Below, piece after piece: positions 68-20,552 of a DNA stretch of 64,000 nucleotides. The stretch comes from Aeoliella mucimassa (GTDB taxonomy: Bacteria > Planctomycetota > Planctomycetia > Pirellulales > Lacipirellulaceae), in assembly GCF_007748035.1 (NCBI RefSeq), contig NZ_CP036278.1:3224001-3288000 (forward strand), given 5' to 3'. Position 1 is the first letter of the stretch. Each line of letters begins with the position of its first letter. Below the pieces are notes generated by a model. It was not told the DNA's origin, made no database searches, and worked only from the letters and a program-made list of their open reading frames with translations. The position numbers and the translations under genes were made by a program.

Positions 68-385
68 ATGCCGATTGCCGAAGACCTTATCCGCGAATCG
101 CTGAAGCAAGTGATCGACCCCGAATTGTTCGTCAACATCGTAGACCTGGGGCTGATTTACGAGATTAAGCAAGACGAGCAGGAAGACGGCACCAACCATG
201 TAACTGTCGACATGACGATGACGAGTCCGGCCTGCCCGGCGGGGCCGCAGCTCATGGCTCAGTCGAAAGATGCGGTCGAGAAACTTGATGGCGTCGACGA
301 AGTTGAAATCAAGCTCGTGATGACTCCTCCTTGGACTCAAGACCGCATGACCGAAGACGCCCGCGATCAACTCGGCATTTTCTAG
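68..385 (+). CDS. MIP18/DUF59 family iron-sulfur assembly protein
   Basis: A 105-residue stand-alone member of the MIP18 (DUF59/SufT/PaaD-like) family. The N-terminus carries the family pattern (SLKQVIDPELFVNIVDLGLIY), followed by a beta strand and the TSPACPAG segment with the conserved cysteine near residue 55, then PPWTQDRMTEDAR near the C-terminus. Members help assemble or insert Fe-S clusters in the cytoplasm. The ATG at 68 gives the normal family length. It ends 15 bases before the mfnD-like gene and may be co-transcribed with it. No other Fe-S assembly gene is adjacent, so its client protein is unknown. Confidence 0.86.
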   Translation: MPIAEDLIRESLKQVIDPELFVNIVDLGLIYEIKQDEQEDGTNHVTVDMTMTSPACPAGPQLMAQSKDAVEKLDGVDEVEIKLVMTPPWTQDRMTEDARDQLGIF

Positions 386-400
386 ATTCGAGCCACGACG

Positions 401-1426
401 TTGAACCTCTTTATCTACGAATGGGTATGCGGCGGGGGATATCTCGACCGCTTGGGTTCTGCCCCGGATTCCCTGCAGCGCGAAGCGTGGGCGATGCTCT
501 CGGCCCTGGTGGCCGACTTTGCTGCACTCGACGGCTGCCAAGTTGCAACGCTCGTCGAGCAAGCGTACGCCGAAGGTATCGACGCGAAGGTCGAAGTCCG
601 CCTTGCCGACTCCGAGAGAGCTCGCAAGTCGCAGTTTGGCAAACTGGTTCGCCAGGCCGATTACACAGTGATCGTCGCCCCCGAGTTCGAAGGTATCCTT
701 TTAGGACTGGCTGGGCGAGTCGAGAGACTTGGCGGTCGACTATTAAGCCCCGATGCAGCATTTGTCGAAATCGCCAGCGACAAGCAGTCGACCTACGAAC
801 GGCTCTACAAACCTCGCATCGCTACGCCCCGCGGGTCGGTGTTGATGTCGGGTGAGCGGTTCGGCGACGGAATGCCCTACCCGATCGTGGTAAAACCGAT
901 TGATGGTTGCGGATCGCTCGGCGTCGTGCGACACGACGGTCCCGGTGCTTGCCCGCTGGAATCGGCCGCTTACCGGTGGGAGGAGTTTGCCGAGGGACTT
1001 CCCGTGAGCGTTGCCTTTCTCTGCAGCGGAGAGCATCGTTTGACGCTCGAACCTTGCGTGCAGCGGCTCAACCAACCGACCGACTTCACCTACCTCGGCG
1101 GGGAGCTTCCGCTCTCGCCTGAACAGTCGCAACGCGCCCACACGTTGGCCGCCCAGGCGATGGATGCGCTACCTACGACCACTGGCTACGTAGGAGTCGA
1201 TCTGGTGCTGGGAGACGCCCCAGATGGCTCCGACGATAAGGTGATCGAGATTAACCCGCGTTACACGACCTCGTACATTGGACTCCGCGCGGCAACAGAA
1301 GCGAATCTGGCGGCCACGTTGCTATCGCTGGTTACCGACGGCGCGGCCGCGGAACCAACCTTCGACAAAGCAGTGGCCTGGAACGCGGATGGCACACTTA
1401 CCTCGGTAGAGAGCGCGGATCGATGA
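401..1426 (+). CDS. mfnD: ATP-grasp ligase, MfnD-like (tyramine/tyrosine-glutamate ligase)
   Basis: A 341-residue ATP-grasp enzyme. The central VVKPIDGCGSLGVV segment (about residues 165-178) is the ATP-binding lysine/glycine-rich strand. The C-terminal VIEINPRYTTSYIG (about 280-293) holds the Mg-binding Glu/Asn pair and the INPR-TTSY pattern seen in MfnD-type ligases. MfnD of methanogens joins glutamate to tyramine in methanofuran synthesis. Methylotrophs making methylofuran may use tyrosine instead, and no tyrosine decarboxylase is visible here. The start is a TTG at 401, because the nearby ATG at 421 is out of frame. The stop overlaps the next start as ATGA. Function rests on family motifs plus the two downstream mfn-like genes. 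Confidence 0.78.
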   Translation: MNLFIYEWVCGGGYLDRLGSAPDSLQREAWAMLSALVADFAALDGCQVATLVEQAYAEGIDAKVEVRLADSERARKSQFGKLVRQADYTVIVAPEFEGILLGLAGRVERLGGRLLSPDAAFVEIASDKQSTYERLYKPRIATPRGSVLMSGERFGDGMPYPIVVKPIDGCGSLGVVRHDGPGACPLESAAYRWEEFAEGLPVSVAFLCSGEHRLTLEPCVQRLNQPTDFTYLGGELPLSPEQSQRAHTLAAQAMDALPTTTGYVGVDLVLGDAPDGSDDKVIEINPRYTTSYIGLRAATEANLAATLLSLVTDGAAAEPTFDKAVAWNADGTLTSVESADR

Positions 1427-2430
1427 CAGGGTGGCTCGGTATCGATGTTGGGGGAGCCAACCTGAAAGTGGCCGACGGCTCGGAGTTTGCCCATCACCAG
1501 CCCTTTGCCCTTTGGCAACGGCCCGACGAACTGGCAGAGGCCCTCACGGGGCTATTGCAACAGAGCCCCGCTTGCGAGGCCATCTGCGCGACGATGACAG
1601 GCGAGCTGGCCGACTGCTACGAAACAAAACGCGATGGGGTGCTGCACATTACCAACGCCCTCTCCGAAGCGGCCGGCGACCGCCGACTAGTAATCTACGC
1701 GGTGGATGGTAGTTTTCAATCTTCGGCCAGCACCTTCATCAATCCGCTCCGCGCGGCCGCCAGTAACTGGCACGCTCTCGCCCGGTTTGCGTCGCGGTTC
1801 CTGCCCAATTCCACGGGGCTGGTGATCGATATCGGTTCGACCACGGCCGACATCATTCCCGTGATCGCAGGAGAGGTAGCCAGCCAGTCGCAAACCGATT
1901 TCGATCGGCTCGTCGCTGGCGAGCTGGTGTATACCGGGGCGAGTCGCACGCCGGTGGCCACCATCGTGAGCTCGCTACCTTACCGTGGTTTGCAGGTGCC
2001 GGTCGCGGCCGAGTTCTTTTCCACCACCGGCGACGTGCAAGCGATCCTTGGCTATCCGCTGCCCGACGATGCGGAGTCGGCCGATGGTCGTGGCTTCTCG
2101 CAACAGGAATGTATCGATCGGCTCGCACGGCAAATCTGTGTCGATCGCGAGTCGTTTAATCTGGAAGATGCGATCACCGCCTGCCAATACATTCTTCCGC
2201 ACCAACTGTTCCCACTGGAGATGGCCGCACTTCGAGTGCTTCGCTCGTTCCCCTCAGGGGAGGTTCCCGTCATCATTTCCGGCTCCGGCGAGTCGCTCGC
2301 CCGGCAGTTGGTCGCCCGACTTCCGCGTACCACGCTGGTCGGTTCCCTTGGCGAACAGATTGGCGAGGTGCCGAGCAGCTGCGCGGCGGCGGTGGCCGTC
2401 GCCCGCTTGGCGATGGAGCAATTTTCGTGA
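1423..2430 (+). CDS. mfnF: MfnF-like H4MPT-linked C1 pathway protein (ASKHA/hydantoinase-like)
   Basis: A 335-residue protein of the hydantoinase/oxoprolinase-like family found with tetrahydromethanopterin-linked C1 genes. It shows two ASKHA phosphate-binding signatures: GWLGIDVGGANLKVADG at the N-terminus and VIDIGSTTADIIPV near residue 135, and a late ISGSGESLA motif. The archaeal homologue MfnF condenses the furan diphosphate with gamma-glutamyltyramine to form the methanofuran core. The gene starts by ATGA overlap with the ligase gene and ends by GTGA overlap with the kinase gene, which implies translational coupling of all three. The substrate in this organism (tyramine or tyrosine form) is inferred, not shown. 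Confidence 0.8.
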   Translation: MTGWLGIDVGGANLKVADGSEFAHHQPFALWQRPDELAEALTGLLQQSPACEAICATMTGELADCYETKRDGVLHITNALSEAAGDRRLVIYAVDGSFQSSASTFINPLRAAASNWHALARFASRFLPNSTGLVIDIGSTTADIIPVIAGEVASQSQTDFDRLVAGELVYTGASRTPVATIVSSLPYRGLQVPVAAEFFSTTGDVQAILGYPLPDDAESADGRGFSQQECIDRLARQICVDRESFNLEDAITACQYILPHQLFPLEMAALRVLRSFPSGEVPVIISGSGESLARQLVARLPRTTLVGSLGEQIGEVPSSCAAAVAVARLAMEQFS

Positions 2431-3011
2431 TCGTTAATCCGGCTCTCGAGGTCGTCAAACTGGGGGGAAGCCTGCTCGCCCGCCCCGACCTCGTGCCGGC
2501 GGTGCGGGCCTGGCTGGCAGATAATCAAGATCGTCCGGTCGTGTTTGTGGTCGGCGGCGGATCGCTGGTCGACCACCTGCGTGAGGTCTGCCGCACGATG
2601 CCGGTCGACGACCACACTGCCCACTGGCTGGCGATCGACGCCATGGAGCTGTCGGCACACTGGCTGGCTTGGCGAATCCCCGAGCTGGCCACGGTTGCTC
2701 ACTACGACAAGGCGGCTGCAATAAAAGACACGTGCCGCACATCCGTGATGCTTTGCGGCTTGTTTTTAAGGGAAAACGAACCACTTCTTCCTGGCACCCG
2801 GTTGCCGATTGGCTGGCAGGTGACCAGCGATTCCATCGCCGCTCGGCTGGCGGTCTGCCTGGGAGCGAGTCGGCTGACCCTCATCAAATCTCGCGCGGCC
2901 ACCGCGGCCGAGTCGACCGACTGGCATCAGGCCACCCGCAGTGGGCTGGTCGATGCGTTCTTCCCGTCGCTGGTCGGCGAGCTGACCGAAGTTCGGGTGG
3001 TTACGATCTAA
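2427..3011 (+). CDS. mfnE: amino acid kinase family protein, MfnE-like
   Basis: A short (194-residue) amino acid kinase fold protein. The N-terminal VVKLGGSLL and the VVFVVGGGSLVDHLRE segment are the phosphate-binding glycine loops. WQVTSDSIAARLA and LTLIKSRAA are the usual late nucleotide-site strands. Archaeal MfnE belongs to this family and phosphorylates aminomethylfuran phosphate to the diphosphate used by MfnF, so position and size fit that role. The start is GTG at 2427, overlapping the previous stop. A uridylate or aspartate kinase is less likely because the protein is short and sits in this operon. The 230 bases that follow hold the promoter of the next operon. Confidence 0.77.
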   Translation: MIVNPALEVVKLGGSLLARPDLVPAVRAWLADNQDRPVVFVVGGGSLVDHLREVCRTMPVDDHTAHWLAIDAMELSAHWLAWRIPELATVAHYDKAAAIKDTCRTSVMLCGLFLRENEPLLPGTRLPIGWQVTSDSIAARLAVCLGASRLTLIKSRAATAAESTDWHQATRSGLVDAFFPSLVGELTEVRVVTI

Positions 3012-3241: not shown

Positions 3242-4858
3242 GTGTCTTCATCGCTAGACTCAAAGTACGCTGGAACGATTTCCAGCCCACGGAAGATTGC
3301 TCTACTTTCGTTGACAACCCTACTGGCAATCGTGTTCGTGCACGCGCCGGCCTTGGGGTACGACAAAGAAAGTCCCGAAGTGCGGGCAATGGTCGATAAG
3401 GGCAAGGCCTATCTCGAGAAGCACTCGGAGGACCCCCGGCTGGGAGCCAAGTGCCTGGTGGCCATCGTCTTCATTAAGGAGGGCGAGAAAGACCACGCTC
3501 TGGTAAAAATCGCCCTGGATGCCTGTCGCGAAGCGGCCGCCAAGAACGAACCCGAAGACGTTTACTCCAACGGCCTGGCAATCATCTTTCTGGCCGCGCT
3601 CGATGCCAAGGCTCATCGCAATCAGTTGCAGTTCTTTCTGAACGCGATGCAGCGTCGCCAAAAACCTCATGGTGGTTGGGGCTACGACGTCAAGCCGACC
3701 GGTGATACCTCGCAGTCGCAGTACGGCTGCCTTGGCTCTTGGGAAGCTTTTCAAAAAGGCATGCCGATCAACGTGGGCTCCATCGATGGCGTCGCCAATT
3801 GGTTGATCAACACCCAAGACCCCAGCGGTGCCTGGGGATATCAGGGCAAAGTTGGCTCGCCCGACAAACTGGAGGAACAGGAAGAAATCACCTGCTCAAT
3901 GGTAGCTGCTGCCATGGGTAGTATCCTGATCTGCGCCGACCTGGTCGGTATTCTCAAGCCGCACGCGGCCGAGGAACTTGAAGACCAACTGCCGACTGGT
4001 TTTACCGTGAGTAGTGATCGTGACAATAATCGTCCGCGATTAGGTGGCTCGAGCATCAACCCTCGACAACTCCTGCTCGCTGTCCAACGAGGCAATGCCT
4101 GGATGGACAAGAACTACGAAGTCGAGATCAAGCAATACACGTCGTATTACATGTATGCCCTCGAGCGTTACAAATCGCTGGCGGCGATTCTCGATGGCAA
4201 CATCGTTGACCAACCGGTCTGGTACAACAATGGCGTCGAGTACCTGATGAAGACGCAAAGCTCGCGTGGCAGCTGGGATACCGGTTGCGGCGAGCAGTGC
4301 GATACTGCGTTTTCTATCCTGTTTTTGATCCGCTCGATGGAATCGGAACTCAATAGCCTTGAAGGTTCGGCCATCGCTGGTCGTGGCGTTCCCGTTAACA
4401 TCAGTAATCTGAAAGTAAGTGGCAACGACCTGGTGGCTCAGCAGGCGCAGACCGAGATCGACGAAATCATCGGCGATTTGGACGACGAAAAGCTCGCCAA
4501 GCTCGAAGGCGTGATCAACGGTTCCGGTACCCTGAACATCGGCAATGTCGATGAAAAGAGCATCCGCCGGCTGAAACAGGTCGTCCGCAGCGGCGAACCG
4601 GCCGCCCGAATCGTGGCAGTAAAAGCGCTGGCCCAGACTGGCGATTTCGACCACGTTCCTACCCTGCTCTACGCACTGGCCGACACCGACAAAACCCTGG
4701 CACGCACCGCTCGCGATGGGCTGCGGTTCGTTAGCCGCCGATTCGAGGGCTTTGGCCTTAAGGACAACTTTAGCCGCGCCGAACAGTTGGAAGCGGTCGA
4801 CAAGTGGGTGAAATGGTATTCCGGGGTTCGTCCCGATGTACCGGTTGTACTGGAGTAG
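3242..4858 (+). CDS. exported QW-repeat (squalene-cyclase-like) protein with HEAT-like C-terminus
   Basis: A 538-residue protein with an N-terminal signal segment (about residues 17-38, cleavage likely after ALG). The middle has alpha-alpha toroid repeats with QW-type motifs: KPHGGWGYD, DPSGAWGYQG and SRGSWDTG. The C-terminal 100 residues (RIVAVKALAQTGD...LLYALADTDK) look like HEAT repeats. The toroid lacks a DXDD catalytic motif, so it is probably a binding or scaffold protein in the periplasm, not a terpene cyclase. The start is GTG at 3242 behind a strong ribosome site. It leads an eight-gene operon with ExbB/ExbD genes, so a role in an energised envelope complex is inferred. Confidence 0.82.
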   Translation: MSSSLDSKYAGTISSPRKIALLSLTTLLAIVFVHAPALGYDKESPEVRAMVDKGKAYLEKHSEDPRLGAKCLVAIVFIKEGEKDHALVKIALDACREAAAKNEPEDVYSNGLAIIFLAALDAKAHRNQLQFFLNAMQRRQKPHGGWGYDVKPTGDTSQSQYGCLGSWEAFQKGMPINVGSIDGVANWLINTQDPSGAWGYQGKVGSPDKLEEQEEITCSMVAAAMGSILICADLVGILKPHAAEELEDQLPTGFTVSSDRDNNRPRLGGSSINPRQLLLAVQRGNAWMDKNYEVEIKQYTSYYMYALERYKSLAAILDGNIVDQPVWYNNGVEYLMKTQSSRGSWDTGCGEQCDTAFSILFLIRSMESELNSLEGSAIAGRGVPVNISNLKVSGNDLVAQQAQTEIDEIIGDLDDEKLAKLEGVINGSGTLNIGNVDEKSIRRLKQVVRSGEPAARIVAVKALAQTGDFDHVPTLLYALADTDKTLARTARDGLRFVSRRFEGFGLKDNFSRAEQLEAVDKWVKWYSGVRPDVPVVLE

Positions 4859-4894
4859 CCCCCGCCCTGCCCCCTTTGCCCTAGTTATTATTTC

Positions 4895-4915
4895 AACCCC
4901 AAATATACTGGGGTT
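4895..4915 (+). other. intercistronic stem-loop
   Basis: AACCCCA at 4895-4901 and TGGGGTT at 4909-4915 form a perfect 7-bp stem with a 7-base loop between the first and second operon genes. There is no following T-run, so it may be an attenuator or mRNA-stabilising hairpin, not a full terminator. Confidence 0.4.
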
Positions 4916-4950
4916 ACCTCCCTCCCCCCTCAACCAGGAAGGCTTGAACC

Positions 4951-5832
4951 ATGAGTGCTGCAAACAGTCCCGGGACTGCGGCCGCCGGTAAGCATTACCG
5001 CCTGCAAGTGAACTCGTTCGACCGAGTTTCGAGCTTGCTGGTATCGCTGCTGGTGTTGGTGGGGACCACCGTTGCGGTGATGGTGATCATCTTTGTCTTT
5101 CGCCGGTTCAGCCCCGATATGACTCAGGCTGTCGTAATTCCGGTTTCCAAAGCCCGCGGCGAACCGCCAAAGGGATATGCCGAAGACCTGGAACCACCAG
5201 GGCTCGAGGATGCTCCGACCGACATGCCGCCGGAGCTGCAGGAGACTCTCAAAGAGCTGACCAACGCGATTAGTTCGAAAACCGCCATGATTTCGAACGA
5301 CACCTTCCGTGCCGACAAGCAAGCTGGCTACGGTACTGGTAAAGGTCATAAGGACTACGACGGCACCGGCGGCGAAGGTGGTAACGACCCGCCGAAGGAA
5401 ATGCGGTTCGACGCCAGTTCCGAAACCGACTACGCACGGATGATCGACTACTTCGGCGGCGAACTGGCTGTGATTGTGCCGCGGGAAAAGAAGATCTACT
5501 ACGCCAAGAATCTGGCGAACGCCAGGCCAACCACACGTGTTGGCACGCCAGTTGAAGAAAACAAAGCGAATCGTTTCCGCTTCCTAGCGAGCGGTCCTCC
5601 GCTACAGCCCCTGGAAGTCAAACTCGCCCGCAAAGCAAACATCATGAAGGCGAATGCCATCGTGGTGGTGTTCTATCCCGAAGAGTTTGCCACCAAGATC
5701 TACACGATTGAGCAAGCGGAAATGCGGAAGAACGGACACAAGTCGATCGACGAGATCGATCGCACGATTATTCGCGTGTCCAAGCAAGGTAGCGATTACA
5801 ACTTGAATGTCGAAAAGCAAACTTACTTTTAG
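4951..5832 (+). CDS. membrane-anchored hypothetical protein in ExbB/ExbD operon
   Basis: A 293-residue protein that I do not assign to a family. It has one N-terminal transmembrane helix (about residues 27-52), then a proline/acid-rich stretch (about 65-95), a Gly-rich segment near 130-145 and a mixed alpha/beta C-terminal half. This topology (anchor, extended linker, soluble domain) recalls TonB/TolA-like energy transducers, but no TonB C-terminal motif can be recognised. It lies 92 bases after the QW protein and 23 bases before the ExbB-like gene. A role as the partner driven by the ExbB/ExbD motor is an inference from position and topology only. Confidence 0.72.
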   Translation: MSAANSPGTAAAGKHYRLQVNSFDRVSSLLVSLLVLVGTTVAVMVIIFVFRRFSPDMTQAVVIPVSKARGEPPKGYAEDLEPPGLEDAPTDMPPELQETLKELTNAISSKTAMISNDTFRADKQAGYGTGKGHKDYDGTGGEGGNDPPKEMRFDASSETDYARMIDYFGGELAVIVPREKKIYYAKNLANARPTTRVGTPVEENKANRFRFLASGPPLQPLEVKLARKANIMKANAIVVVFYPEEFATKIYTIEQAEMRKNGHKSIDEIDRTIIRVSKQGSDYNLNVEKQTYF

Positions 5833-5855
5833 TTCACTCCTACTTTAGAGATTCG

Positions 5856-6494
5856 ATGGACGTCCTATTTAATGTTGTTGGCATCGTCGTGTACGTCGCC
5901 TTGGCGCTGCTCGCGCTGTGGGGTGCCTTCTGTGCCGTGATTGTTTGGCGACGCGTAGGCCAGGTTCGCTTTAGCGACGAAGAGGAACAAGAAGAGTTCC
6001 TCACCGAACTCGATGGCACCCTCGGCCAAGGCAACTACGCAGAAGCGGTCGCCTTGTGCGAAGAAGATCGTCGGGCGCTGCCACAGCTGGCCTTGTTCTC
6101 GATCGAGAACCGCGAGATCGGCATCGGCAAACTCCAACGCCGGTTGTGGGAACGCTTCCAGCAAGACGTGCTCTCCGATATTGAGCATCGCTTGAGCTGG
6201 GTGGCCACCGTGGTGAAGAGTGCCCCGATGGTCGGGTTGTTCGGTACCGTGCTTGGTATGATGGGTGCTTTCCGTAGCATCGCAACCAGCGAAGGTGGTG
6301 CCGACCCCACAACGATGGCCGGTAACATCATGCTCGCCCTGATCACCACCGCGTGTGGTCTGGCGATCGCGGTGCCGCTGTTGATTGTCACCAATAGCAT
6401 CGTGGTTCGCATTCGCAAAATGGAAGACCTGGTTGGTCTTGGTATCGGTCGACTGATCGAAACGCTGAAACTCGCTTTCGGTCGTTCGCGTTAG
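5856..6494 (+). CDS. exbB: MotA/TolQ/ExbB proton channel family protein
   Basis: A 212-residue ExbB/TolQ-type inner-membrane protein. It has a first helix at about residues 5-30, a cytoplasmic loop, and the typical C-terminal pair of helices: KSAPMVGLFGTVLGMMGAF followed by AGNIMLALITTACGLAIAVP, which holds the conserved Thr-rich channel helix. ExbB forms the proton channel core around an ExbD dimer and powers outer-membrane or periplasmic work. The next two genes are both ExbD-like, which fits a complete motor. No TonB-dependent receptor lies in the window, so the driven process is unknown. Confidence 0.92.
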   Translation: MDVLFNVVGIVVYVALALLALWGAFCAVIVWRRVGQVRFSDEEEQEEFLTELDGTLGQGNYAEAVALCEEDRRALPQLALFSIENREIGIGKLQRRLWERFQQDVLSDIEHRLSWVATVVKSAPMVGLFGTVLGMMGAFRSIATSEGGADPTTMAGNIMLALITTACGLAIAVPLLIVTNSIVVRIRKMEDLVGLGIGRLIETLKLAFGRSR

Positions 6495-6547
6495 TCGCTT
6501 GATTTGCCACTGCCCAACTTCGCTCCCCTACCCCCACCGATTCGGCT

Positions 6548-7081
6548 ATGTCCATTAACGATAAACTCGACTCCGTCGTCATGAAGCGTGCCGACGACTC
6601 GGTTATCATGACTGAGGAGGACGACGATTTTGCTCGTCCTGAACGTCCGGCGCGCGATGCCGACGACCTGGACATGGATATCACGCCGATGATCGACATC
6701 ACCTTTCTGTTGTTGATCTTCTTCCTGGTGTCGTCGACCCCTGACCAATCAACCCCTATCAAGCTGCCGCAGGCCAAGCATGGTAGTTCGGTGAGTCAGC
6801 GGTTCTCCACCATGATTTATGTGGGCCAAGGGGGCATCGATTCGGCGCCGGTCTTCAAAGGGGATGCCAACAACCCGACCGAAGAGTTCTCGCGCGACGC
6901 CGAGCGTCGTGAAGAACAAATCGGCGAGTACATTCGCGCCGGGCTGGCCGAAGACAAACTCGATGTTGTGATCAAAGCCGATCGAACCGTGCCTTGCGGC
7001 AGTATCGACGGAGTGCTCAAAGCGGTGTCGAAGGTGGAAAAAATAAAACTCCATCTCGGTGTGCTGGAGCCCAATTCGTAA
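6548..7081 (+). CDS. exbD: ExbD/TolR family protein (first copy)
   Basis: A 177-residue ExbD/TolR protein. About 45 mostly acidic cytoplasmic residues precede a single helix with the signature LDMDITPMIDITFLLLIFF. The Asp in MIDIT is the conserved proton-carrying residue. The periplasmic domain follows and ends with DVVIKADRTVPCGSIDGVLKAV, the usual late strand-helix. It pairs with the ExbB gene upstream and a second ExbD downstream, so the motor may contain an ExbD heterodimer. A 100-base gap to the next gene is longer than elsewhere in this operon. Confidence 0.92.
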   Translation: MSINDKLDSVVMKRADDSVIMTEEDDDFARPERPARDADDLDMDITPMIDITFLLLIFFLVSSTPDQSTPIKLPQAKHGSSVSQRFSTMIYVGQGGIDSAPVFKGDANNPTEEFSRDAERREEQIGEYIRAGLAEDKLDVVIKADRTVPCGSIDGVLKAVSKVEKIKLHLGVLEPNS

Positions 7082-7181
7082 ACGGCGCCGGGGTGAGTAG
7101 GTCTTGGGGCAGGGACCTACTCACCTCGGTTGCTAACCCATTCAAACGCCCCGTTCATCGCTGTTACCCCTGCTACGATCC

Positions 7182-7685
7182 ATGTCCACCGACCTTCATG
7201 ATGACGATGCCGCAGCCGAGGCCTTCACGCCGCCCGCGCCCAAAAAGCGTACGGACGACGAGTTGGACATGACGCCGATGGTGGACGTGACCTTCCTGCT
7301 GCTGATTTTCTTCATGGTCACCGCGGCCTTCGCCATCCAGAAGGTGCTGGAAGTGCCGCCGGTGAACGACGACGAAGTGTCGGCGATTCCAGTTGACGAT
7401 ATCGAGAAGGATTCGATCGTTGTGAAGATCGACGCCGACAACATCTTCTGGATCAGTGCTCCCATCTGGCCCGACAGCGAAGAGAAAGCGATCACGTCGA
7501 TCGATATGCGAGCCAAGGTGCGCCAGGCAAAGGATGGCGATTCGAACGGCCCTGGCCCAACCAAAATGATGGTGCAAGCGCACGAAGAAGCGGTGTACGA
7601 GAAACTGGTAGACGCGATCGATGCCGGTTCCGCGGCCGAGATTAACGAAATAAGCGTGGCAGTGGTCGAGGACGAAGATTTCTGA
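7182..7685 (+). CDS. exbD: ExbD/TolR family protein (second copy)
   Basis: A 167-residue second ExbD/TolR protein. It has an acidic N-terminus, a membrane helix with LDMTPMVDVTFLLLIFF carrying the conserved Asp, then a periplasmic domain that differs clearly from the first copy after the helix. Paired, divergent exbD genes next to one exbB are common in Planctomycetes and suggest a hetero-oligomeric stator. It is followed 53 bases later by the large PQQ-propeller gene. Confidence 0.92.
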   Translation: MSTDLHDDDAAAEAFTPPAPKKRTDDELDMTPMVDVTFLLLIFFMVTAAFAIQKVLEVPPVNDDEVSAIPVDDIEKDSIVVKIDADNIFWISAPIWPDSEEKAITSIDMRAKVRQAKDGDSNGPGPTKMMVQAHEEAVYEKLVDAIDAGSAAEINEISVAVVEDEDF

Positions 7686-7738
7686 CCCCTCGCCAGGCTC
7701 CCCCATTCATTCGTATTGACATAGACCCCGAAGATTAG

Positions 7739-10700
7739 ATGACAGCCGCAGAGTTAATCGACACGCTGGAAGCCAAAGAGCTACTGCCCAAGGAAACGGC
7801 AGACAAGCTTCGTAAGAAGATTGCCAAGAGCAGCAAGCCCCTCACAGCAAAATCGCTGGCTCGGTTTCTGATTGAAAAGGGACATCTCTCCAAGCAAGAC
7901 GTGGTGGAAGCCCTGGCCGCAGGCGGCGAAGTGAAGCTTCCCCCGCCCGAGCCCTCCAGCACTGGCGAGCCTTCCGGCGTCGACCTGCCGATGGAAGATC
8001 TGCAGGACCTGAGTAGCTCGTCGGAGTGGACCATGGATGGCGAAAGCGGTGCCTTCGCCGAGCCGACCGGCGGCGCCATGGAAGCTGCTGAGCCCACTTC
8101 GAAGAAGAAACGCAAGAAGAGCAAAAAAGGCAACGAATGGGACTCGCCACTATTGCTGATCGGCGGCGGTAGCCTGGTATTCATGGTCGTCGTGGGATTA
8201 TTGATCTACTGGATCATGTTCGCGGAAAACGCCGACAACATTCTTGGTGCTGCTCGCGACGACATGGAAGCTGGCTCGTATGGAAATGCGATCGCCAACT
8301 ACGAGAAGTTTGTCGAGAGCTACCAGAGCAACGCGGAGTACAGCACCGCGCGGGTAGAACTGGCGATGGCCCGCATTCGCCAGCGTCTAGAAACCAGCGA
8401 CGAAAAGGATGCGTTTGAAGTAGCCGAGAAGGAACTGAACGCCATCGGCAGTGAACCCGATTTCCATGTCGCCGAGGAGGACCTTAGCGCCCTGCTCCCG
8501 CGCATCGCTCGAGGGTTGGCCGACAAAGCCGAAGCGAGCAAAGACCCGGCAGTGACCGACGACTTGGCCGCCCGCGCGACTCGTGCGTTGGAGATGGCCA
8601 ACAACACCAAGTACATCCCCAAGTCGCGTCGCGACAACACCGAACTTGAAGAGATTCTCGCGACGCTTGACACGATTGCCAAGCGTCAGCAGTCGCTTTC
8701 CGACTTGGCAGCTGCCCTTAAGCAGATTGAAGAACTCAACGGCCAGGGCGATGCTTCGGCTGCTTTTGCGGTGCAGGAAGAACTGGTCGACAAGCATCCC
8801 ACGCTGCTCAACAACCAAGAGCTGCTGAAGGCATTGCAAAGCATCTCGGAAACCGAACAGAAGAACATTAGCTACGTCGAAGAGCCGGTTGATGCCTCGA
8901 CCAGCGAACGCGACAACAATGTGGTGGCAACGCTTGCCGTAGCGAACCGCCGAATCACTGGCACGTCGCCGGCAACAGGGGCCGTTTGCGTCGTGGTCGA
9001 CGGAGCCGCTTATGGCATCGACTCCAGCACAGGCAACGTGCTCTGGCGTCGCTACACAGGGCCATCCACGTCGCCCCAGGAAGCACTGAGCATCGAGAGT
9101 GACGTGATCCTGATCGACTGGCGGATGCCCGAGCCCAACAAGGTGCAGCAATCGCTAGTGCGAGTGAACGCTGAAACGGGACAACTCGTTTGGCGGTTGG
9201 AACTCGACGATCAAGTCGCCGCACCGACGCTGGCGGGCAATCGTTTGCTGCTTGCCGGAGCCTCTGGCAAGTTGCATGTGGTCGACGCCAAGAGTGGTGC
9301 TCGCGCGGGCTACGTGCAGTTCTCGCAACCACTCACAACGACTCCTACGTTCGACCCGAATAAAGGTGTCGTTTACCTGACTGGCGAGCGATCCAGTTTC
9401 TACAGCGTTTCGATCAACGACATGAGTTGCCTCGGTGTGTACTTCACCAAGCACGCCCGCGGCAGCATCGTGGCTCCCCCAGTGGTCGCCATCGACAAAG
9501 TCGTGGTGGTCGAAAACGATGGCGCCGATACCTCGAAGGTGCTCTTGTTCTCGACAACGGCTAACGGAGCCATCGATAAACAACTCGGCGCACAGCGTCT
9601 TACTGGCCGTGTAGTCACTCAGCCGTTAGTCGACGGTCGCCGAATCACATTCATCACCGACCGTGGGCAAATCGCTGTCTACGAGGTGAGTGTCGGTGCC
9701 GATGGGGATGCTCTAACGCTGGTCGCCCAGAAGTCGGATCGTAGTGCTCAGCCCCGTGTTAGTTTTGGACATATGCTCGATGGCCACGTCTGGGTTGCCG
9801 AGAGTTCACTCGTAAAGTACGCCATCTCTCCGACTGGTAATCGATTGAATGCGGTCGGTTTGAAGAACGATTACAACCGCTCGCAGTACGTCACCCCGCT
9901 CGCGGTACGCGGCGACGTGGTGATTCACACGCGTGGTCGCCGCCGTAAGGCAGGCTTCACCGTGACTGCCTCGAACAGCAGCGATGGCAGCCCTTACTGG
10001 GAAACCGATATCGCGACTCCTGCAGCCGGCAATCCGCTGGCGAGCGCCAATCCCTTGGCTTTGCTCGAAGCCGATGCGAATGGCAAGGTCTACCGATTTG
10101 ATCCCGAGGCCATCAAGACTCGCGTGCAGAACGACTCGCTCGAGAATCCGTTGGGCAATTCCGACGAAACGGTCTACAGCTATTCGAACCTGCTAGCCGA
10201 CGGGGCTGCCGTGTTTGCGGCTGAGGATGCCGCGCACGTGTTGTTGTATTCTCCGAGTGCACCGAAGCCACTCTCGAAGATCGACCTGGCTGCTCCCCTG
10301 GCAGCAAGCCCCACGACCTTTGGTAAAGGCTGGGTGGCTCCGCTGAAAGTTGGGCAGGTGTTTGTGCTCGATGCCGAGTCCGGTAAACCAATCGCCGCCC
10401 CGTTCCAGCCGACCCTCGAAGCAGGACGCACCCTGCATTGGAAACCTGCCAGCGTCTACGACCAGGATCGTCTGCTAATCACCGACGGAGCGACCAAACT
10501 CTACATGCTTGAAGTCGGCGACGATGGGGCTCCCGCGCTTACCGCCGCGAGCGAAGCAACACTCAATCTCACCCCGCTCAGTACCGGCTTCACCGTGGCG
10601 GGCGACGTCGCCGTGGCGATTGCCGCTAATGGCCAACTTTCCATCTACAAACTGCCAGAACTCGAACCGCTGCAAAGCGTGAACCCTGGCGGCCGCGTTG

Positions 10701-11017
10701 TGTGGGGCCCCCATGCCGCTGGCGAAACCGTGGTGCTGGCAACCGCTAAGTCGTTGACAGCCATCGACAGCTCTGGCGCCGCAACCTGGCAGGTTCCCTT
10801 GGAAACCGGTGCTTTGGCCGGCACACCGCTGACTGATGGCGGCTCGATGATCGTTGCCGCCCAGGATGGCACGATCCTGCGAATCAACCTTGCCGATGGC
10901 AGTATTGCTGGTCGGGCCGATGCCGGCGAGCCCATCGCTGCTGGTCCGGTGAAGCTGGGCAACCGCTTGGTCGTCTCCGCCCGTGATGGTTCCCTGTTGG
11001 TTGTCGACGCTCCCTAA
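7739..11017 (+). CDS. membrane protein with PQQ-like beta-propeller and TPR-like linker
   Basis: A 1,092-residue protein. Residues 1-65 form a small helical domain (AELIDTLEAKELLPKETADKLRKKI) that also occurs at the front of planctomycete regulatory proteins. A low-complexity acidic/Lys linker leads to one transmembrane helix at about residues 138-160. A helical TPR-like region (about 165-380) precedes repeated PQQ/WD-like blades such as GAVCVVVDGAAYGIDSSTGNVLWRR and LAGNRLLLAGASGKLHVVD through the C-terminus. Such propellers usually act as periplasmic scaffolds. The stop overlaps the next ATG (TAATG), so it is coupled to the solute-binding-like gene. Its function is unknown beyond probable assembly into the ExbB/ExbD envelope complex. 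Confidence 0.82.
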   Translation: MTAAELIDTLEAKELLPKETADKLRKKIAKSSKPLTAKSLARFLIEKGHLSKQDVVEALAAGGEVKLPPPEPSSTGEPSGVDLPMEDLQDLSSSSEWTMDGESGAFAEPTGGAMEAAEPTSKKKRKKSKKGNEWDSPLLLIGGGSLVFMVVVGLLIYWIMFAENADNILGAARDDMEAGSYGNAIANYEKFVESYQSNAEYSTARVELAMARIRQRLETSDEKDAFEVAEKELNAIGSEPDFHVAEEDLSALLPRIARGLADKAEASKDPAVTDDLAARATRALEMANNTKYIPKSRRDNTELEEILATLDTIAKRQQSLSDLAAALKQIEELNGQGDASAAFAVQEELVDKHPTLLNNQELLKALQSISETEQKNISYVEEPVDASTSERDNNVVATLAVANRRITGTSPATGAVCVVVDGAAYGIDSSTGNVLWRRYTGPSTSPQEALSIESDVILIDWRMPEPNKVQQSLVRVNAETGQLVWRLELDDQVAAPTLAGNRLLLAGASGKLHVVDAKSGARAGYVQFSQPLTTTPTFDPNKGVVYLTGERSSFYSVSINDMSCLGVYFTKHARGSIVAPPVVAIDKVVVVENDGADTSKVLLFSTTANGAIDKQLGAQRLTGRVVTQPLVDGRRITFITDRGQIAVYEVSVGADGDALTLVAQKSDRSAQPRVSFGHMLDGHVWVAESSLVKYAISPTGNRLNAVGLKNDYNRSQYVTPLAVRGDVVIHTRGRRRKAGFTVTASNSSDGSPYWETDIATPAAGNPLASANPLALLEADANGKVYRFDPEAIKTRVQNDSLENPLGNSDETVYSYSNLLADGAAVFAAEDAAHVLLYSPSAPKPLSKIDLAAPLAASPTTFGKGWVAPLKVGQVFVLDAESGKPIAAPFQPTLEAGRTLHWKPASVYDQDRLLITDGATKLYMLEVGDDGAPALTAASEATLNLTPLSTGFTVAGDVAVAIAANGQLSIYKLPELEPLQSVNPGGRVVWGPHAAGETVVLATAKSLTAIDSSGAATWQVPLETGALAGTPLTDGGSMIVAAQDGTILRINLADGSIAGRADAGEPIAAGPVKLGNRLVVSARDGSLLVVDAP

Positions 11018-13365
11018 TGTTTTCTCCGCAGTTAAGCAATCGAATGATGTCCGCTTCGCCACGCCCTGTCGCCTTCCGCTTGTTCCACCTGATGCTGGTG
11101 GTGCTTACGGTAGCCACTTGCGCGGAAACCCTTGCTCAGAACAAGGACGAAGGGCCGCTCTACATGCGGACCCCGTTCGACCGCATCGTTATGAAGTCGG
11201 GGCAAAAGGTTAACGTCCAGAAGTTGCGACTCCCCTGGGGCGGACGCACGGTGCCAGCTACGCTGCCCGCGGCGGGAACCTTCAAGGCCCGGCTGCTTGA
11301 AGGTCCGAATACCCTATCGGAATATGACATCTCCTGGTCGCAAGTCGCCCGCATCGATCTGTTTGAAGACATGATCATGCAAGAAGGTGTGCAACTGACC
11401 AAAGATAAGAAGTTCGACGACGCCTTCCCCTACTTTGCTTACCTATTGAAGGAAGCACCTCAAACTCGCGGACTCGATCAGGCAATCAGCACCTACCTGC
11501 AAACCAATGCCCTCGCTGCTTACGATCAGCATGAGTTCGATCGCGCTTTGGCGATTCTCGGCAGCCTGTACGAACGCACGCCGAACTCCCGTGGGTTGTC
11601 CGGCGCGGTTGATACCGTTGCGAGCAAAATCATCGAGCAGTACCTGGCCGAGAAAAATTACAAAGCGGCTCGATTGACCCTCGATGTAGTCGACCATACG
11701 TTTCGCGGGTTAGACATCAAAGTCGTCAATCAATGGCGGGGTAACTTCAAGCAAACCGCTTCGTCGCAGTTGAAGGAAGCCGAACGGCTGATCAACGCCC
11801 GCCAGTACCTTGAAGCTCGGCAGGCCATCGCCGAAGCAGTCGGCGTATGGCCCGAACAACCAGGTATTGTCGAAATGCAGGAACGCCTGCAACGCGAGCA
11901 TCCCATTGTCACGCTCGGCGTGCTCCAGCGTTCCCCCAGTAAGCCCACGCACCGACTCGATAGCTTCGCGTCCACCCGCGCGGCTTCGCTCATCGCTCCC
12001 ACATTGGTGGAACTGCGAGGCTACACTTCTGAAGGTGGTGAGTACGTTTCGTCGGTAGGACAAGTAGAACTTTCCGATACGGGCCAGGAACTAACCGTTC
12101 AGTTTGTCGACGCTCCCTCGGGCAATCCGGTGGAGACTGGTTTGGCAGCGTCGGCTTTTGCTCGCAAACTGATCGAAGTGACCAATCCCGCCAGCGACGA
12201 GTACGACGAAGCCCTCGGCACGGTCATCGTCGAGGTGTCTGTCGAGTATCCCAATCTCGTCCACATCAAGTTAAGCCACTCGCATGTGCGTCCTGAGGCG
12301 TTGCTCACGCTGCCAATGTCGCCTGCTGTAGGGCAATTAAGCGATCGCGGCATTTTCTCCATTTCGGAGCAAAACAACGAATTGACTCGATTCGTAGCCG
12401 ACCCCGATCACCGCGGGGCGATTGCCGAACTCCATGAAGTCGCCTTCGCCGACGACGAAGACCTGGTAACTGCGGTTTCGCTAGGCACGGTCGACGTGAT
12501 TGACCGCGTGCCGCCATGGCAACTCCCACGTCTTCGGGCAAACAAGCAGGTAGTGATCGGCACCTATAAGCTACCAACCATACACGTGCTGATACCTACA
12601 GGGCGGTCGCCAATTACCAGCCAGCGCGAGTTCCGCCGCGCCCTGTGTTATGGTATCGACAACGAAACAATCATTCGCGACGTGCTACTCGCCGGCAACG
12701 ATGTTCCTGGTTTTCAGCCGGTAAGTGGCCCCTTTCCGGCCGGTTTGAACACAGTTGATCCCATTCGTTACGGCTACAACGGTCAAGTGAAGCCTCGGAA
12801 GTACGATCCCTACATGGCCATTGTGCTGTCGTCCGCAGCATGGTCGAACGTGCAAAAGTCGCAAGGCATTAAAGAGCCCAATCCCGACACGCCGTTGCCT
12901 AAACTCAAGCTTGGGCACTCCTCCGACGCGGTAGCTCGCACTGCTTGCAACGAGATCGTGAAGTACCTTGAACCACTTGGCATTTCGGTCGAGCTCGTCG
13001 AACTCTCCACCGAGGAGATGCTTATGGCCGACGACCTGGTCGACCTCAAGTACGTGGAATTGGAAACTTGGGAACCCGTGGTCGACGCTCGTCGGCTGCT
13101 CGGGGCCAATGGCCTGCTCGGCGAAGCGAGCGATTACATGATGCTTTCGCTCGACCGACTCGATCAGGCCGAAAACTGGAACCAGGTACGCAACGAACTA
13201 TTCAACATTCATGATGTTGCCAGCACCGACCTGCCGGTGATTCCACTCTGGCAAACAGTTAACTATTTCGCCTACCGTAGCGCCCTGACAGGCATATCGG
13301 CCGAGCCGGTTCACCTGTTCCAAGATGTCGCCAAGTGGCAACTCGAGATTCGCCCGCAACGCTAG
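11017..13365 (+). CDS. TPR plus peptide/solute-binding (SBP_bac_5-like) exported protein
   Basis: A 782-residue protein with a signal peptide in the first 40 or so residues. The N-terminal half has TPR-like helices (EDMIMQEGVQLTKDKKFDDAFPYFAYLL and later repeats). The C-terminal half resembles the family 5 extracellular solute-binding fold of ABC dipeptide importers: REFRRALCYGIDNETIIRDVLL is the typical helix after the hinge, and LPVIPLWQTVNYFAYRSAL a typical late segment. No ABC permease or ATPase gene lies nearby, so it may sense or hold a ligand for the envelope complex. The start ATG overlaps the stop of the propeller gene. Confidence 0.78.
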   Translation: MFSPQLSNRMMSASPRPVAFRLFHLMLVVLTVATCAETLAQNKDEGPLYMRTPFDRIVMKSGQKVNVQKLRLPWGGRTVPATLPAAGTFKARLLEGPNTLSEYDISWSQVARIDLFEDMIMQEGVQLTKDKKFDDAFPYFAYLLKEAPQTRGLDQAISTYLQTNALAAYDQHEFDRALAILGSLYERTPNSRGLSGAVDTVASKIIEQYLAEKNYKAARLTLDVVDHTFRGLDIKVVNQWRGNFKQTASSQLKEAERLINARQYLEARQAIAEAVGVWPEQPGIVEMQERLQREHPIVTLGVLQRSPSKPTHRLDSFASTRAASLIAPTLVELRGYTSEGGEYVSSVGQVELSDTGQELTVQFVDAPSGNPVETGLAASAFARKLIEVTNPASDEYDEALGTVIVEVSVEYPNLVHIKLSHSHVRPEALLTLPMSPAVGQLSDRGIFSISEQNNELTRFVADPDHRGAIAELHEVAFADDEDLVTAVSLGTVDVIDRVPPWQLPRLRANKQVVIGTYKLPTIHVLIPTGRSPITSQREFRRALCYGIDNETIIRDVLLAGNDVPGFQPVSGPFPAGLNTVDPIRYGYNGQVKPRKYDPYMAIVLSSAAWSNVQKSQGIKEPNPDTPLPKLKLGHSSDAVARTACNEIVKYLEPLGISVELVELSTEEMLMADDLVDLKYVELETWEPVVDARRLLGANGLLGEASDYMMLSLDRLDQAENWNQVRNELFNIHDVASTDLPVIPLWQTVNYFAYRSALTGISAEPVHLFQDVAKWQLEIRPQR

Positions 13366-13367
13366 TA

Positions 13368-14816
13368 ATGCTCCGCTCTATTAAGTCAACTTGTACTTAC
13401 CTCGCCTCATCGCTCGCTATGCGTGTGCTGATTGGCTGGTTCGCCCTGTCTACCATTTCGTGGGGGGCATCGGTCGACCGTTACTGGGATATCACCCCCT
13501 ACAACATCCAAATACTTGTCGACTGCCGTTTGTCGGAGACCTGGAATCGCCAGCTTGAGCAGAGTTTACCGGTCTATCTGAAATCGCGTGGCCGGGTTTC
13601 GATGGGACCGCTTTGGAAGATTACCATCGCCCAACTGCCCGACGATGTGGCCATCTCGAACGACTCGAACCTTGCGGTCTTCTCCGACAAGGCGATCAAG
13701 TCCGTTCGCACCGATTTCGACAAACTGATCGTCGTATCACTTTGTGAGACCACCACCGGGTACACGGCCAACGCCCAGGAATACGACTGCCTGCTAGAAA
13801 CTTGGAGTCAAATCTGGACTCTTGAAACCCGCAATCAGGCGGAGCTGCAAGAGTTGGCGTTCGACGCCACACTGCAAGCTTTCTCGCCGATGGCTACGTT
13901 TAAAGTCATTCGCGAGACACCCACCAAAGTGGAGATGAGCATGAAAGGTTCGCGATTGCCGCGCCCTGAACACACGCTCCCACTGCTGGAGGAAGGACAA
14001 GTCTTCCGCCCTGTGCTCCGCCGTGTTGATCGCACCGGCCAGCCGGTCGAAAACGGGATTCAGCCTGTCCCCTGGACCTACTTGTCGACCAACGCCTTGG
14101 ATGGCGAGACCACCACGGCCGACATCGTCAGCCATACCCCCATCCCCATGGGCGTTCGCCAGCGTGGCCGTGTCGATCAGGTCGCTGCCTTCGTGCGTCC
14201 TGGCAATCGAGAAACCCGTCTGAAGCTCTACTCACGCGATGAGCAACAAGATCCCTTGGCTGGTTTCCGTGTCTATCAGCGAGACGCGGGCGCTGAAAAA
14301 GGAGAGTTCATCGGCAAGACTACCGACGATGGGACGATCGTCGTCCACCATGGCGAAACGCCGATTCAGGTCGCCTTCGTCCAAAGCAGCGGGCAATGGA
14401 TCGCAAAGATCCCGCTTGTGCCTGGAGCCGATGGAATCATCGAAGCCCCCGTGCTCGACGATAGCAAGCGGCAAGAAGCCGAGGCCAAACTGGTTGGCAT
14501 CCGCGAGCAATTGATCGACTACGTCGCCCAGCGAAACATTTATGCTTCGCGTGCCCGGATGAAGATCAAGGCCAAGGACTTCACCGAAGCCAACCGCCTG
14601 ATTGTCATGCTCGAGAATATACCTTCCGCGACCGCGTTCGATCAGCAACACCTCCGCCCATCCGAGCAGTACATCACCAGCAAAGATCCGCAAGTTCAAA
14701 AGCGGATCACCACGCTCTTCAGCAACACCCGCGACGTGCTGGCCCAGTTCCTGGCCCCCGGCCTGGCCCAGCAGCTCAAGCGAGAGCTCGCCGAAGCCAA
14801 CGCAGCGGCCCAGTAA
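13368..14816 (+). CDS. exported hypothetical protein, last gene of the ExbB/ExbD operon
   Basis: A 482-residue protein with no family I recognise. I choose the ATG at 13368, two bases after the previous stop, over an in-frame upstream start at 13335: it avoids a 31-base overlap and gives a clean signal peptide (hydrophobic stretch about residues 18-35). The body is a mixed domain with a possible beta-sandwich near residues 270-360 and a helical C-terminal tail rich in Lys/Glu/Ala. It is followed by an AGCGGC/GCCGCT stem at about 14869-14887 and then tRNA-Leu, so it ends the operon. Confidence 0.75.
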   Translation: MLRSIKSTCTYLASSLAMRVLIGWFALSTISWGASVDRYWDITPYNIQILVDCRLSETWNRQLEQSLPVYLKSRGRVSMGPLWKITIAQLPDDVAISNDSNLAVFSDKAIKSVRTDFDKLIVVSLCETTTGYTANAQEYDCLLETWSQIWTLETRNQAELQELAFDATLQAFSPMATFKVIRETPTKVEMSMKGSRLPRPEHTLPLLEEGQVFRPVLRRVDRTGQPVENGIQPVPWTYLSTNALDGETTTADIVSHTPIPMGVRQRGRVDQVAAFVRPGNRETRLKLYSRDEQQDPLAGFRVYQRDAGAEKGEFIGKTTDDGTIVVHHGETPIQVAFVQSSGQWIAKIPLVPGADGIIEAPVLDDSKRQEAEAKLVGIREQLIDYVAQRNIYASRARMKIKAKDFTEANRLIVMLENIPSATAFDQQHLRPSEQYITSKDPQVQKRITTLFSNTRDVLAQFLAPGLAQQLKRELAEANAAAQ

Positions 14817-15581: not shown

Positions 15582-17033
15582 ATGAGGCTCATTCGATTAT
15601 CACTATCGCTAACTGTATTCGTCAGCACACTCTTTGGTGCAGCGCAGACTTGGTCGGGGGACATCCACTCCTTCCCCCAACAAGGCATGCTCTTGGCACA
15701 ACCTCTCTCGGTGGCGGTAGCCTCTTCGCGAGCCCCTGCAGCAGAAGACAAAAGCATCGCTTCCGATGGTTACTTCCCAACTGCACCTGTCGACGATGAA
15801 CCTGATTCCAACTCATTGAACGACGAGTCGACGCTCGAAGAGCCGACAGATGAAACTCTGCCGCGGTTGAACTTGTTCGACGATCGGTTGCATCAACTGG
15901 GACCAGTAGTGGGCGAGTTCGCCTATACAGGTGAGTTCTTCAATAATGCACGCGGAGGTCTAAGCACGAAGTCCGCTACCCGATATCGCGGGAATCTCGA
16001 CTTGATTCTCGACTTTGACCTAGAGCAAATCGCTGGATTGTCCGGCGGTACATTTTTTCTCTACGGCCAGCAAGGGCACGGCAGTGGTATCACTGAAGAC
16101 TTCGTGGGGGACTTTCAAACAATCAGCAATATCGACGCCGGCGATTTTTCGCAAGTGAGCGAATACTGGTAGTTACAGCCATTGGCCGAAGGTTTAATCA
16201 CCTTCAAGTTTGGAAAACAGGATGGCAATGCCGACTTTTGTGCCCTCGATTCGGCGGCCAGTTTCATTGGATCGTCGTTCGGCTTGATTCCGAACGTACC
16301 GCTGCCAACCTTTCCCGATCCGGCGATGGGAGCAGCCGTGTACTTGACGCCCAATGATGCCTGGTGGATTGGCGCAGCGGTGTTTGATGGCTGTTCCAAT
16401 GGACGAACCTGGGGGTGGTCCGACTTGGGGTGTGAGGGATCGCTAAGCATAGTCGAGGCGATCTATCGTCCTGCATTTGCCAGCGGTTCGCTGCCCGGCG
16501 GCTATCATGTTGGTCTGTGGTATCACAGTGGTGAGGTTAGCAACATAGGTACGGGGGAACCCCACGCGGGCAACTATGGCCTATTCACTGCTGGCGAACA
16601 ACTCCTCTGGAAAGAGCATGACAGTCCGGAGGACGACCAGGGCTTGGCCCTATTCGGTCAGTTTGGCTGGGCCCCTGAAGAGTACAACGACGTGACGCAG
16701 TACTACGGCGGCGGCTTGCTTTACAAAGGACTGTTCAAGGGCCGCGACAATGACTACGTTGGCTTCGGTATTGCCCACGCGTGCTTCAGCACTGCACTGA
16801 CCAGTCCGCTCATCATCAGCCGTCAAACGGTTTATCGAGGTAGAACCCACACCTTCCTGAGCCCAATGGGAAGTGAAGATTCAGACATGAGCGAAACCGC
16901 CTTGGAGTGGTTCTATCTCTATGAGGCGACCCCCTGGCTGCAGTTGCAGCCCGACCTGCAATATATCGTCACCCCAGGAGGGAGCGGTCGCGATGCGCTC
17001 GTCGTTGGTCTTCGCTTCCAATGCATGCTGTAA
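15582..17033 (+). pseudogene. carbohydrate-porin (OprB-like) gene interrupted by an in-frame amber codon
   Basis: The reading frame starts with a signal peptide ([20 protein letters not shown]) and continues as an outer-membrane porin. The N-terminal part has [20 protein letters not shown] and [14 protein letters not shown]. After a TAG at 16170-16172 the same frame goes on with LAEGLITFKFGKQDGNADF, typical of OprB-type porins, and ends with a beta-strand plus terminal aromatic-rich strands (QPDLQYIVTP, LRFQCML). Both parts together (about 483 codons) are normal porin length. The stop follows Trp196 at a place where related porins commonly have Tyr, so one base change from TAC or TAT explains it. 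It could be a true pseudogene or an assembly error. Confidence 0.8.
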
Positions 17034-20502: not shown

Positions 20503-20552
20503 GGAATCATCTTTGGGGTAATTATGACTTATGATTCGCCTGTTCTCTACTA

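Follow-up and report, generated by a model that had tools for sequence, protein, structure and literature searches.

The closest described relatives of the system reported here are Tol-Pal (TolQ-TolR-TolA-TolB-Pal-CpoB), the Ton system, the force transducers of the Planctomycetes-Verrucomicrobia-Chlamydiae (PVC) bacteria and the Agl-Glt gliding motor of Myxococcus. The last of these has one TolQ-type and two TolR-type subunits and, on the Glt side, cytosolic regulatory domains on parts of the machine. Ton-type transducers bind their motor through a Ser-x3-His type motif (S-x3-H) in the transmembrane segment. In PVC bacteria, TPR, tolQ-like and paired tolR-like genes accompany transducers with vWA domains, and AglRQS is named among such motors (PMC12204202); a 2022 survey found Tol-Pal to be largely reduced in Planctomycetes (PMC8871954). 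Here we describe an operon at positions 3242-14816 (+ strand) of a 64,000-nucleotide stretch of Aeoliella mucimassa DNA, hereafter the window (G000:C1:3224001-3288000, in a genome that forms a single contig of 6.6 Mb). We propose, with moderate confidence and on the strength of sequence comparisons, that it encodes a Planctomycetia-specific, envelope-spanning proton-driven machine that would work in the manner of Tol-Pal while standing outside that system. The comparisons demonstrate that a predicted ExbB channel and two predicted ExbDs that keep their transmembrane Asp are co-inherited with the membrane-anchored protein P0002 and with propeller, TPR/solute-binding and TolB-N/FlgT-like proteins.

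The operon consists of eight co-directional open reading frames, separated by no more than 100 bases and overlapping at two junctions:

3242..4858, + strand: P0001, exported QW (prenyltransferase/squalene-cyclase-like alpha-toroid) and HEAT protein
4951..5832, + strand: P0002, membrane-anchored candidate transducer; no Pfam or NCBIfam family
5856..6494, + strand: P0003, ExbB/TolQ-type proton channel subunit (Pfam MotA_ExbB, 1.4e-24)
6548..7081, + strand: P0004, ExbD1/TolR-type subunit (Pfam ExbD, 8.4e-16)
7182..7685, + strand: P0005, ExbD2/TolR-type subunit, a divergent paralogue (Pfam ExbD, 8.5e-22)
7739..11017, + strand: P0006, anchored PQQ/BamB-type propeller protein (Pfam PQQ_2, 2.6e-26)
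11017..13365, + strand: P0007, exported TPR-like and family-5 solute-binding protein (Pfam SBP_bac_5, 3e-16; TPR matches weak)
13335..14816, + strand: P0008, exported or anchored protein; no Pfam family

Gene neighbourhoods were compared in 40 regions of 20 kb, each picked for having P0002, whose own 40/40 is by selection. The seven-gene run P0002-ExbB-ExbD1-ExbD2-propeller-SBP-P0008 is intact in 28 of these loci, and all eight genes, with the P0001 QW/HEAT gene ahead of P0002, are found in 18. Single-sequence phmmer searches recovered the operon genes in 24-40 of the 40 loci versus 0/40 for the seven flanking window genes, the farthest of which (18136-20610) was barely reachable within 20-kb regions. 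A profile built from 41 P0002 homologues matched 180 of 198 Planctomycetia genomes, with a single match in 170 of the 180; the count from a single-sequence search (143/198) is too low, because the profile reached more genomes. Outside the class but within the phylum, five of 273 genomes gave matches, all weak and all within profile positions 6-158, so that the C-terminal domain was not covered, and we took them as chance. All 21 class members in the same phylum-wide search matched; the split into 21 class and 273 non-class genomes was inferred from the result order, the first non-matching rows being already labelled 'same phylum'. The P0008 profile matched 169/198 class genomes and 4/273 outside the class, one of the four convincingly (G260, 7e-27). 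In these searches only the few top candidates of each genome (5-11) were scored, and absences hold at that sensitivity. The convincing non-class P0008 homologue (L241:3824-5731) comes from a 7-kb contig on which none of the other operon genes was found.

Among the best 80 loci on organism-named contigs, the top 32 ExbB loci (L116-L147) scored above 260 bits and the others at most 130. P0002 adjoins ExbB in 31 of the 32, the exception (L123) beginning 149 bases from a contig edge; the taxa represented include Stieleria, Rhodopirellula, Rubripirellula, Mariniblastus, Blastopirellula, Planctomicrobium and Thermoguttaceae, and the three that were checked belong to the class Planctomycetia. Two families depart from this arrangement. 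In f12, five regions (L069-L073) lack the ExbB-ExbD-ExbD trio in the operon. An ExbB orthologue was found apart from P0002 in all 15 genomes searched (12 from f12 and three others), with ExbD1 adjoining it in 15/15, and the full ExbB-ExbD1-ExbD2 trio was present in all five f12 regions fetched; the motor trio moves as a unit. In f14, P0002 adjoins a divergent trio in two of three regions (L234 and L236, from one genus; not in L235). Because of these f12 and f14 exceptions, the motor and P0002 look like the core. In the chromosome of G081, presumably Planctopirus limnophila, the P0002 orthologue maps to about 1,132,820-1,133,716 and the genes exbB-exbD1-exbD2-propeller-SBP-P0008 to about 2,201,600-2,211,500. 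In a Planctomycetota metagenome-assembled genome, a distant version of the ExbB-ExbD-ExbD-propeller order precedes genes that look exported (L148:6055-15719), possibly an older form.

The motor proteins have TolQ and TolR as their best NCBIfam matches, both below the equivalog cut-offs (for P0003, TolQ at 71 bits versus a cut-off of 221). Across 32 loci, Thr131 and Thr165 of ExbB are invariant, while positions 118 and 166 vary, and the transmembrane Asp is kept in both partners (ExbD1 Asp50, 32/32; ExbD2 Asp35, 32/32). The initial annotation had read the motor as one ExbB with two divergent ExbD copies, and the Pfam assignments agree. By BLASTP, P0004 and P0005 align over only 43 columns around the transmembrane segment, and a tree of 59 rows places ExbD1 and ExbD2 each in a group of its own (support 100/99); six of the 65 assigned rows were left out of it because they lacked the motif used for trimming. 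A 5:1:1 motor with an ExbD1-ExbD2 heterodimer is the natural inference.

P0002 had been called TonB-like, a description that fits its topology (one predicted transmembrane segment near the N-terminus, a linker and a C-terminal domain) but not its sequence. It matched no Pfam family at E<=0.1, and hence no TonB_C, a domain that the test is able to detect, as it was found elsewhere in the same genome. Of 41 homologues, 40 lack the S-x3-H motif, and in the remaining one it sits at the far end of the transmembrane segment defined by hydropathy; a His anywhere in or at the edge of that segment occurs in 8/41, and none of the 41 sequences has one at aligned transmembrane positions 18-50. The AlphaFold2 (AF2) model of P0002 has a mean predicted local distance difference test (pLDDT) score of 76.3, exceeding 90 across most of the C-terminal domain, and comprises a helix with the transmembrane segment (22-53), a linker with a helix at 94-115, a low-confidence Gly-rich stretch and an alpha/beta C-terminal domain (~147-293). 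A search of PDB sequences with the P0002 profile gave a best E-value of 0.024, which we took as chance. The statement that no TonB receptor is present proved correct for the operon; the genome elsewhere has one TonB_C gene, which shows SVCLH by eye, adjoining one of three Plug-domain genes (G000:C1, 5.485 Mb). Among the sampled class genomes, TonB_C was found in 13/59 and Plug in 18/59. Judged by its genes, the operon is not a Ton system, because P0002 is without TonB_C, mostly without S-x3-H, and retained by 40 of the 41 sampled class genomes that lack both TonB_C and Plug. The initial annotation is accordingly supported in part, namely for a conserved ExbB/ExbD/ExbD operon without a TonB receptor, as far as sequence comparison goes.

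The predicted fold of P0008 resembles the TolB N-terminal domain and FlgT, a likeness that is not functional proof. Its AF2 model (mean pLDDT 88.8) shows a TolB-N/FlgT-like domain (~54-210), a beta region, a CnaB/Ig-like domain (~290-375) and a helical C-terminus. The best Foldseek matches included Acinetobacter baumannii TolB (4.8e-8), an LPHT ring chain (6.7e-8) and FlgT (9.7e-7), and VIA gave Z scores of 7.6-8.3 for TolB chains, 8.5-8.7 for FlgT and the LPHT chain and 10.1 for the Ig-like domain. The P0008 profile against PDB sequences reached a best E-value of 0.19, likewise regarded as chance. TolB_N was found in none of the 59 sampled class genomes versus three of 14 controls (E. coli, Caulobacter and Bacteroides), and Pal (TIGR02802) exceeded its cut-off in 0/59 versus 2/14, with weaker matches in 31/59. 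With neither TolB_N nor Pal above cut-off in any of them, canonical Tol-Pal was not found in the sampled class genomes.

Putative cytosolic domains recur on two of the membrane proteins. ExbD2 has a long N-terminal extension in 51 of 72 rows (84 loci), 42 of the 51 carrying two CxxC pairs; Pfam Zn-ribbon matches in these extensions were below cut-off. At two loci (L066:8568-10142 and L147:8882-10396) ExbD2 is joined to a Ser/Thr kinase domain that has both HRD and DFG, and at a third (L055:9172-13602) the propeller protein carries a Ser/Thr kinase ahead of the transmembrane segment, after the same N-terminal domain as in P0006. In P0006 itself this domain spans residues ~1-70 and is presumably cytosolic; it is followed by a transmembrane segment (~134-166, by hydropathy), a putative TPR-like region and the propeller. 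Outside its own family, the N-domain profile matched only six Ser/Thr kinases (E 3e-5 to 5e-4). P0008 has a convergent kinase gene no more than 200 bp away in 11 of 34 loci, and none in the window. A Planctopirus-like propeller protein (L231) gave a weak match (7e-5, below cut-off) to a cytoplasmic domain of the type III secretion system, which we take to be FHA-like. Phospho-control is a lead, since the kinase fusions are rare and partly from one clade.

We envisage that P0003 would form an ExbB pentamer holding an ExbD1-ExbD2 heterodimer, which proton flow would move; the movement could pass via P0002 and the periplasmic P0006, P0007, P0008 and P0001 to the outer membrane or wall, which would thereby be held, constricted or remodelled. 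Coupling of the motor through P0002 would differ from that of TonB or TolA, because S-x3-H is missing. In at least some lineages, the cytosolic domains of ExbD2 and P0006 (Zn-ribbon-like, kinase, and FHA-like or kinase-associated N-domain) may pass phospho- or metal signals on to the motor.

Several observations weigh against this proposal. P0002 was not found by the profile search in 18 of 198 class genomes, and no other periplasmic part was detected next to P0002 in f14 at comparable scores, so those parts may not be strictly needed. The C-terminal domain of P0002 matched no known fold (Foldseek best E 0.11; VIA best Z 3.2; no PDB chain with Z>=5); the search used the full-length model, and the missing TonB, TolA and vWA rows exclude none of them. 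By contrast with P0002, the candidate transducers at the four loci examined (L104-L107) of the genome's five other ExbB loci all carry S-x3-H in a transmembrane segment. The unrelated YjjX, CT253, HpaA and PelC match P0008 about as well as TolB does (VIA Z 7.3-7.9), and a Z near 8 can reflect no more than a common arrangement; a Pal counterpart was not found. The window's own P0005 has neither a kinase nor the CxxC pairs, the kinase fusions are few, with L066 and L147 apparently of one clade, and the L055 kinase has HRD but DMG instead of DFG.

The alternative that survives best is that the same machine powers macromolecule uptake (dextran or protein) across the outer membrane into an enlarged periplasm, possibly at crateriform structures, with P0007 binding the ligand; we consider this possible though rather unlikely. 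It is compatible with uptake in Gemmata obscuriglobus, where 23% of 1,065 cells took up dextran versus 0/816 treated with carbonyl cyanide m-chlorophenyl hydrazone (CCCP), and 10.15% of 1,281 took up GFP versus 0% of 1,294 with CCCP; the cargo stays periplasmic, and the authors describe the uptake system as still to be characterised (PMC5394234). CCCP halts other energy-dependent processes too. The SBP_bac_5 domain of P0007, found in all seven relatives tested (one slightly below the Pfam cut-off), would suit ligand binding, but the operon offers no substrate path by sequence: no outer-membrane barrel, pilin, inner-membrane permease or ATPase was recognised by Pfam among its eight genes. The crateriform and uptake traits follow the class boundary of the operon, if only approximately, P0002 being class-wide with only the five weak matches beyond it. 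Crateriform structures are recorded in six of seven Isosphaeraceae compared, the seventh being without data (PMC7716859), and for described Phycisphaeraceae they are absent or without data (PMC8882080, PMC7783415); uptake has so far been shown for some Planctomycetia only (PMC11131199). At the f14 loci none of the other periplasmic parts was detected beside P0002, although Isosphaeraceae are reported to have crateriform structures, with the caveat that f14 is not equated with that family. The match to the class boundary does not single out uptake, because budding fits it about as well: budding versus binary fission follows the boundary (PMC8882080), with one Phycisphaerae strain possibly budding (PMC7783415). 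Sequence comparison cannot choose between a budding-linked and an uptake-linked trait, and uptake stays a serious rival. A Tol-like envelope role seems preferable to us, given that the genes are common across the class and usually present once per genome, that searches did not find canonical Tol-Pal and that no substrate channel could be recognised in the operon.

A force-transducing system for gliding, secretion or envelope assembly, like Agl-Glt or the TPR-TolQ-TolR-TolR-vWA systems of PVC bacteria, is unlikely. In its favour, Agl likewise combines one ExbB-type with two ExbD-type subunits, the propeller on P0006 is of BamB type, and the weak L231 match is to a type III secretion domain. The PVC gene sets cited at the outset also recall the operon, but a separate vWA-type locus exists elsewhere in the same genome (L104: vWA-like, TPR, ExbB and one ExbD; VWA score slightly below the Pfam cut-off), and P0002 has no Pfam vWA match and no His at transmembrane positions 18-50. 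Other ExbB loci of the genome were also inspected. Membrane proteins with S-x3-H and a squalene-cyclase-like match at or slightly below cut-off occur at L106:7915-9690 and L107:2438-6280, and on account of these two loci toroid proteins recur as ExbB/ExbD partners. The type VI secretion genes TssF, TssG and VasE adjoin the ExbB/ExbD locus at L105:3434-13706, whose S-x3-H protein matches Laminin_G weakly.

The most far-reaching reading would make the operon the proton-powered engine of crateriform membrane-spanning contacts, combining a heterodimeric ExbD1-ExbD2 motor, a Ser/Thr-phosphorylation switch acting through motor-fused domains, periplasmic macromolecule capture, replacement of Tol-Pal and P0002 as a new type of transducer; this combination is decidedly improbable. 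A conventional Ton-type energiser, serving TonB-dependent receptors from other parts of the genome, would fit the ExbB/ExbD family match and the three Plug-domain genes of the genome, and is very improbable given that P0002 lacks TonB_C, that the TonB_C gene adjoins a Plug gene elsewhere and that P0002 persists in nearly all class genomes with neither domain. A decayed or accidental cluster without joint function, for which one could cite gaps of up to 100 bases and promoter and terminator predictions no commoner than in shuffled sequence, is hardly tenable beside the seven-gene run kept in 28 of 40 loci, the tested flanking genes that recur in none of them and the invariance of the ExbD Asp and two ExbB Thr.

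If the Tol-like proposal is correct, the operon may explain how Planctomycetia hold or use their outer membrane. Described members bud, and two take up proteins or polysaccharides in an energy-dependent manner by a route that their describers regard as still to be characterised. The operon provides one deletable candidate for three questions: what replaces Tol-Pal, what energises uptake and which component bridges the envelope where crateriform structures occur. If functional, the fusions of a kinase to ExbD or to the propeller protein would place a proton motor directly under phospho-control from the cytosol. Among the matches listed in searches of the open-licence PMC literature, none was a paper on this operon. 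ExbB, ExbD and Tol are not mentioned in the available main text of a Planctopirus limnophila essential-gene paper (PMC10632474), nor are ExbB, ExbD, TolQ, TolR or Tol-Pal in the main text of one on Verrucomicrobium (PMC12283558).

Further features of the operon and window were recorded. The QW/HEAT, propeller and TPR/solute-binding proteins named by the initial annotation were all found, and the eighth gene, P0008 (13335-14816), had been left unnamed; its remark that P0007 comes without an ABC transporter agrees with the Pfam results for the eight genes. P0001 matches SQHop_cyclase_C (5.1e-7) and, below the family cut-off, HEAT_2 (1.4e-4), and has a hydrophobic stretch at 15-40 (hydropathy). 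It is probably non-catalytic; the D.DD motif is absent in 19 of 26 aligned sequences, and the seven with the motif, including the window copy, have it at 0-based index 411-535. PADLOC gave no matches for the eight operon proteins at E<=0.001, and promoter and terminator predictions showed no excess over shuffled sequence. A tRNA-Leu lies downstream at 14950. Upstream, at 68-3011, a DUF59-like gene (by eye) is followed by ATP-grasp_3, Hydantoinase_A and amino-acid-kinase genes (Pfam), a set that presumably resembles methanofuran-type C1 cofactor genes and is not beside the operon in the 40 relatives' loci. An OprB-family porin gene at 15582-17033 is interrupted by one in-frame TAG (16170-16172), and a single gene at 18136-20610 (- strand) joins a beta-lactamase-family domain to a D-Ala-D-Ala dipeptidase domain.

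Compared with known systems, the operon shares with Ton an ExbB/ExbD family motor and an anchored periplasmic protein, but has no TonB_C or receptor, and S-x3-H is found in just one of 41 P0002 homologues. With the vWA force transducers of PVC bacteria it shares a TolQ-like gene, a tolR-like pair, a TPR gene and an anchored transducer with a linker, but the His of their SHLS motif in the transmembrane helix is absent from P0002 (PMC12204202). P0002 has no Pfam vWA match and none among its fold rows, which does not exclude vWA; the L104 locus is close to these systems except for its single ExbD (PMC12204202). Family-5 ABC importers come with permease and ATPase genes, whereas the P0007 operon has neither by Pfam, a statement that covers the operon and not the rest of the genome. 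To FlgT of the H-ring in the Vibrio flagellar motor the likeness of P0008 extends over 203 aligned residues (VIA Z 8.5, root-mean-square deviation 10.9 A); it is domain-level only, because the deviation is large, and the operon has no flagellar gene. The operon has one TolQ-type and two TolR-type subunits (Pfam, tree), as does Agl-Glt, whose side of the comparison comes from its description and not from sequence comparison; the periplasmic parts of Agl-Glt differ from those of the operon. From Tol-Pal the operon differs in its two ExbD types, in that no TolA-like motif was found, in a propeller protein with its own transmembrane segment, and in its SBP_bac_5, QW/HEAT and kinase-linked domains. 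Like Tol-Pal, it has a TolQ/TolR-family motor, a candidate transducer anchored by a single transmembrane segment, propeller and TPR-like proteins and, according to the model, a TolB-N-like domain in P0008, and it is mostly present in one copy per genome. Because the TolB-N-like fold of P0008 stands together with a propeller protein and a TPR-like protein, the layout of the operon recalls Tol-Pal.

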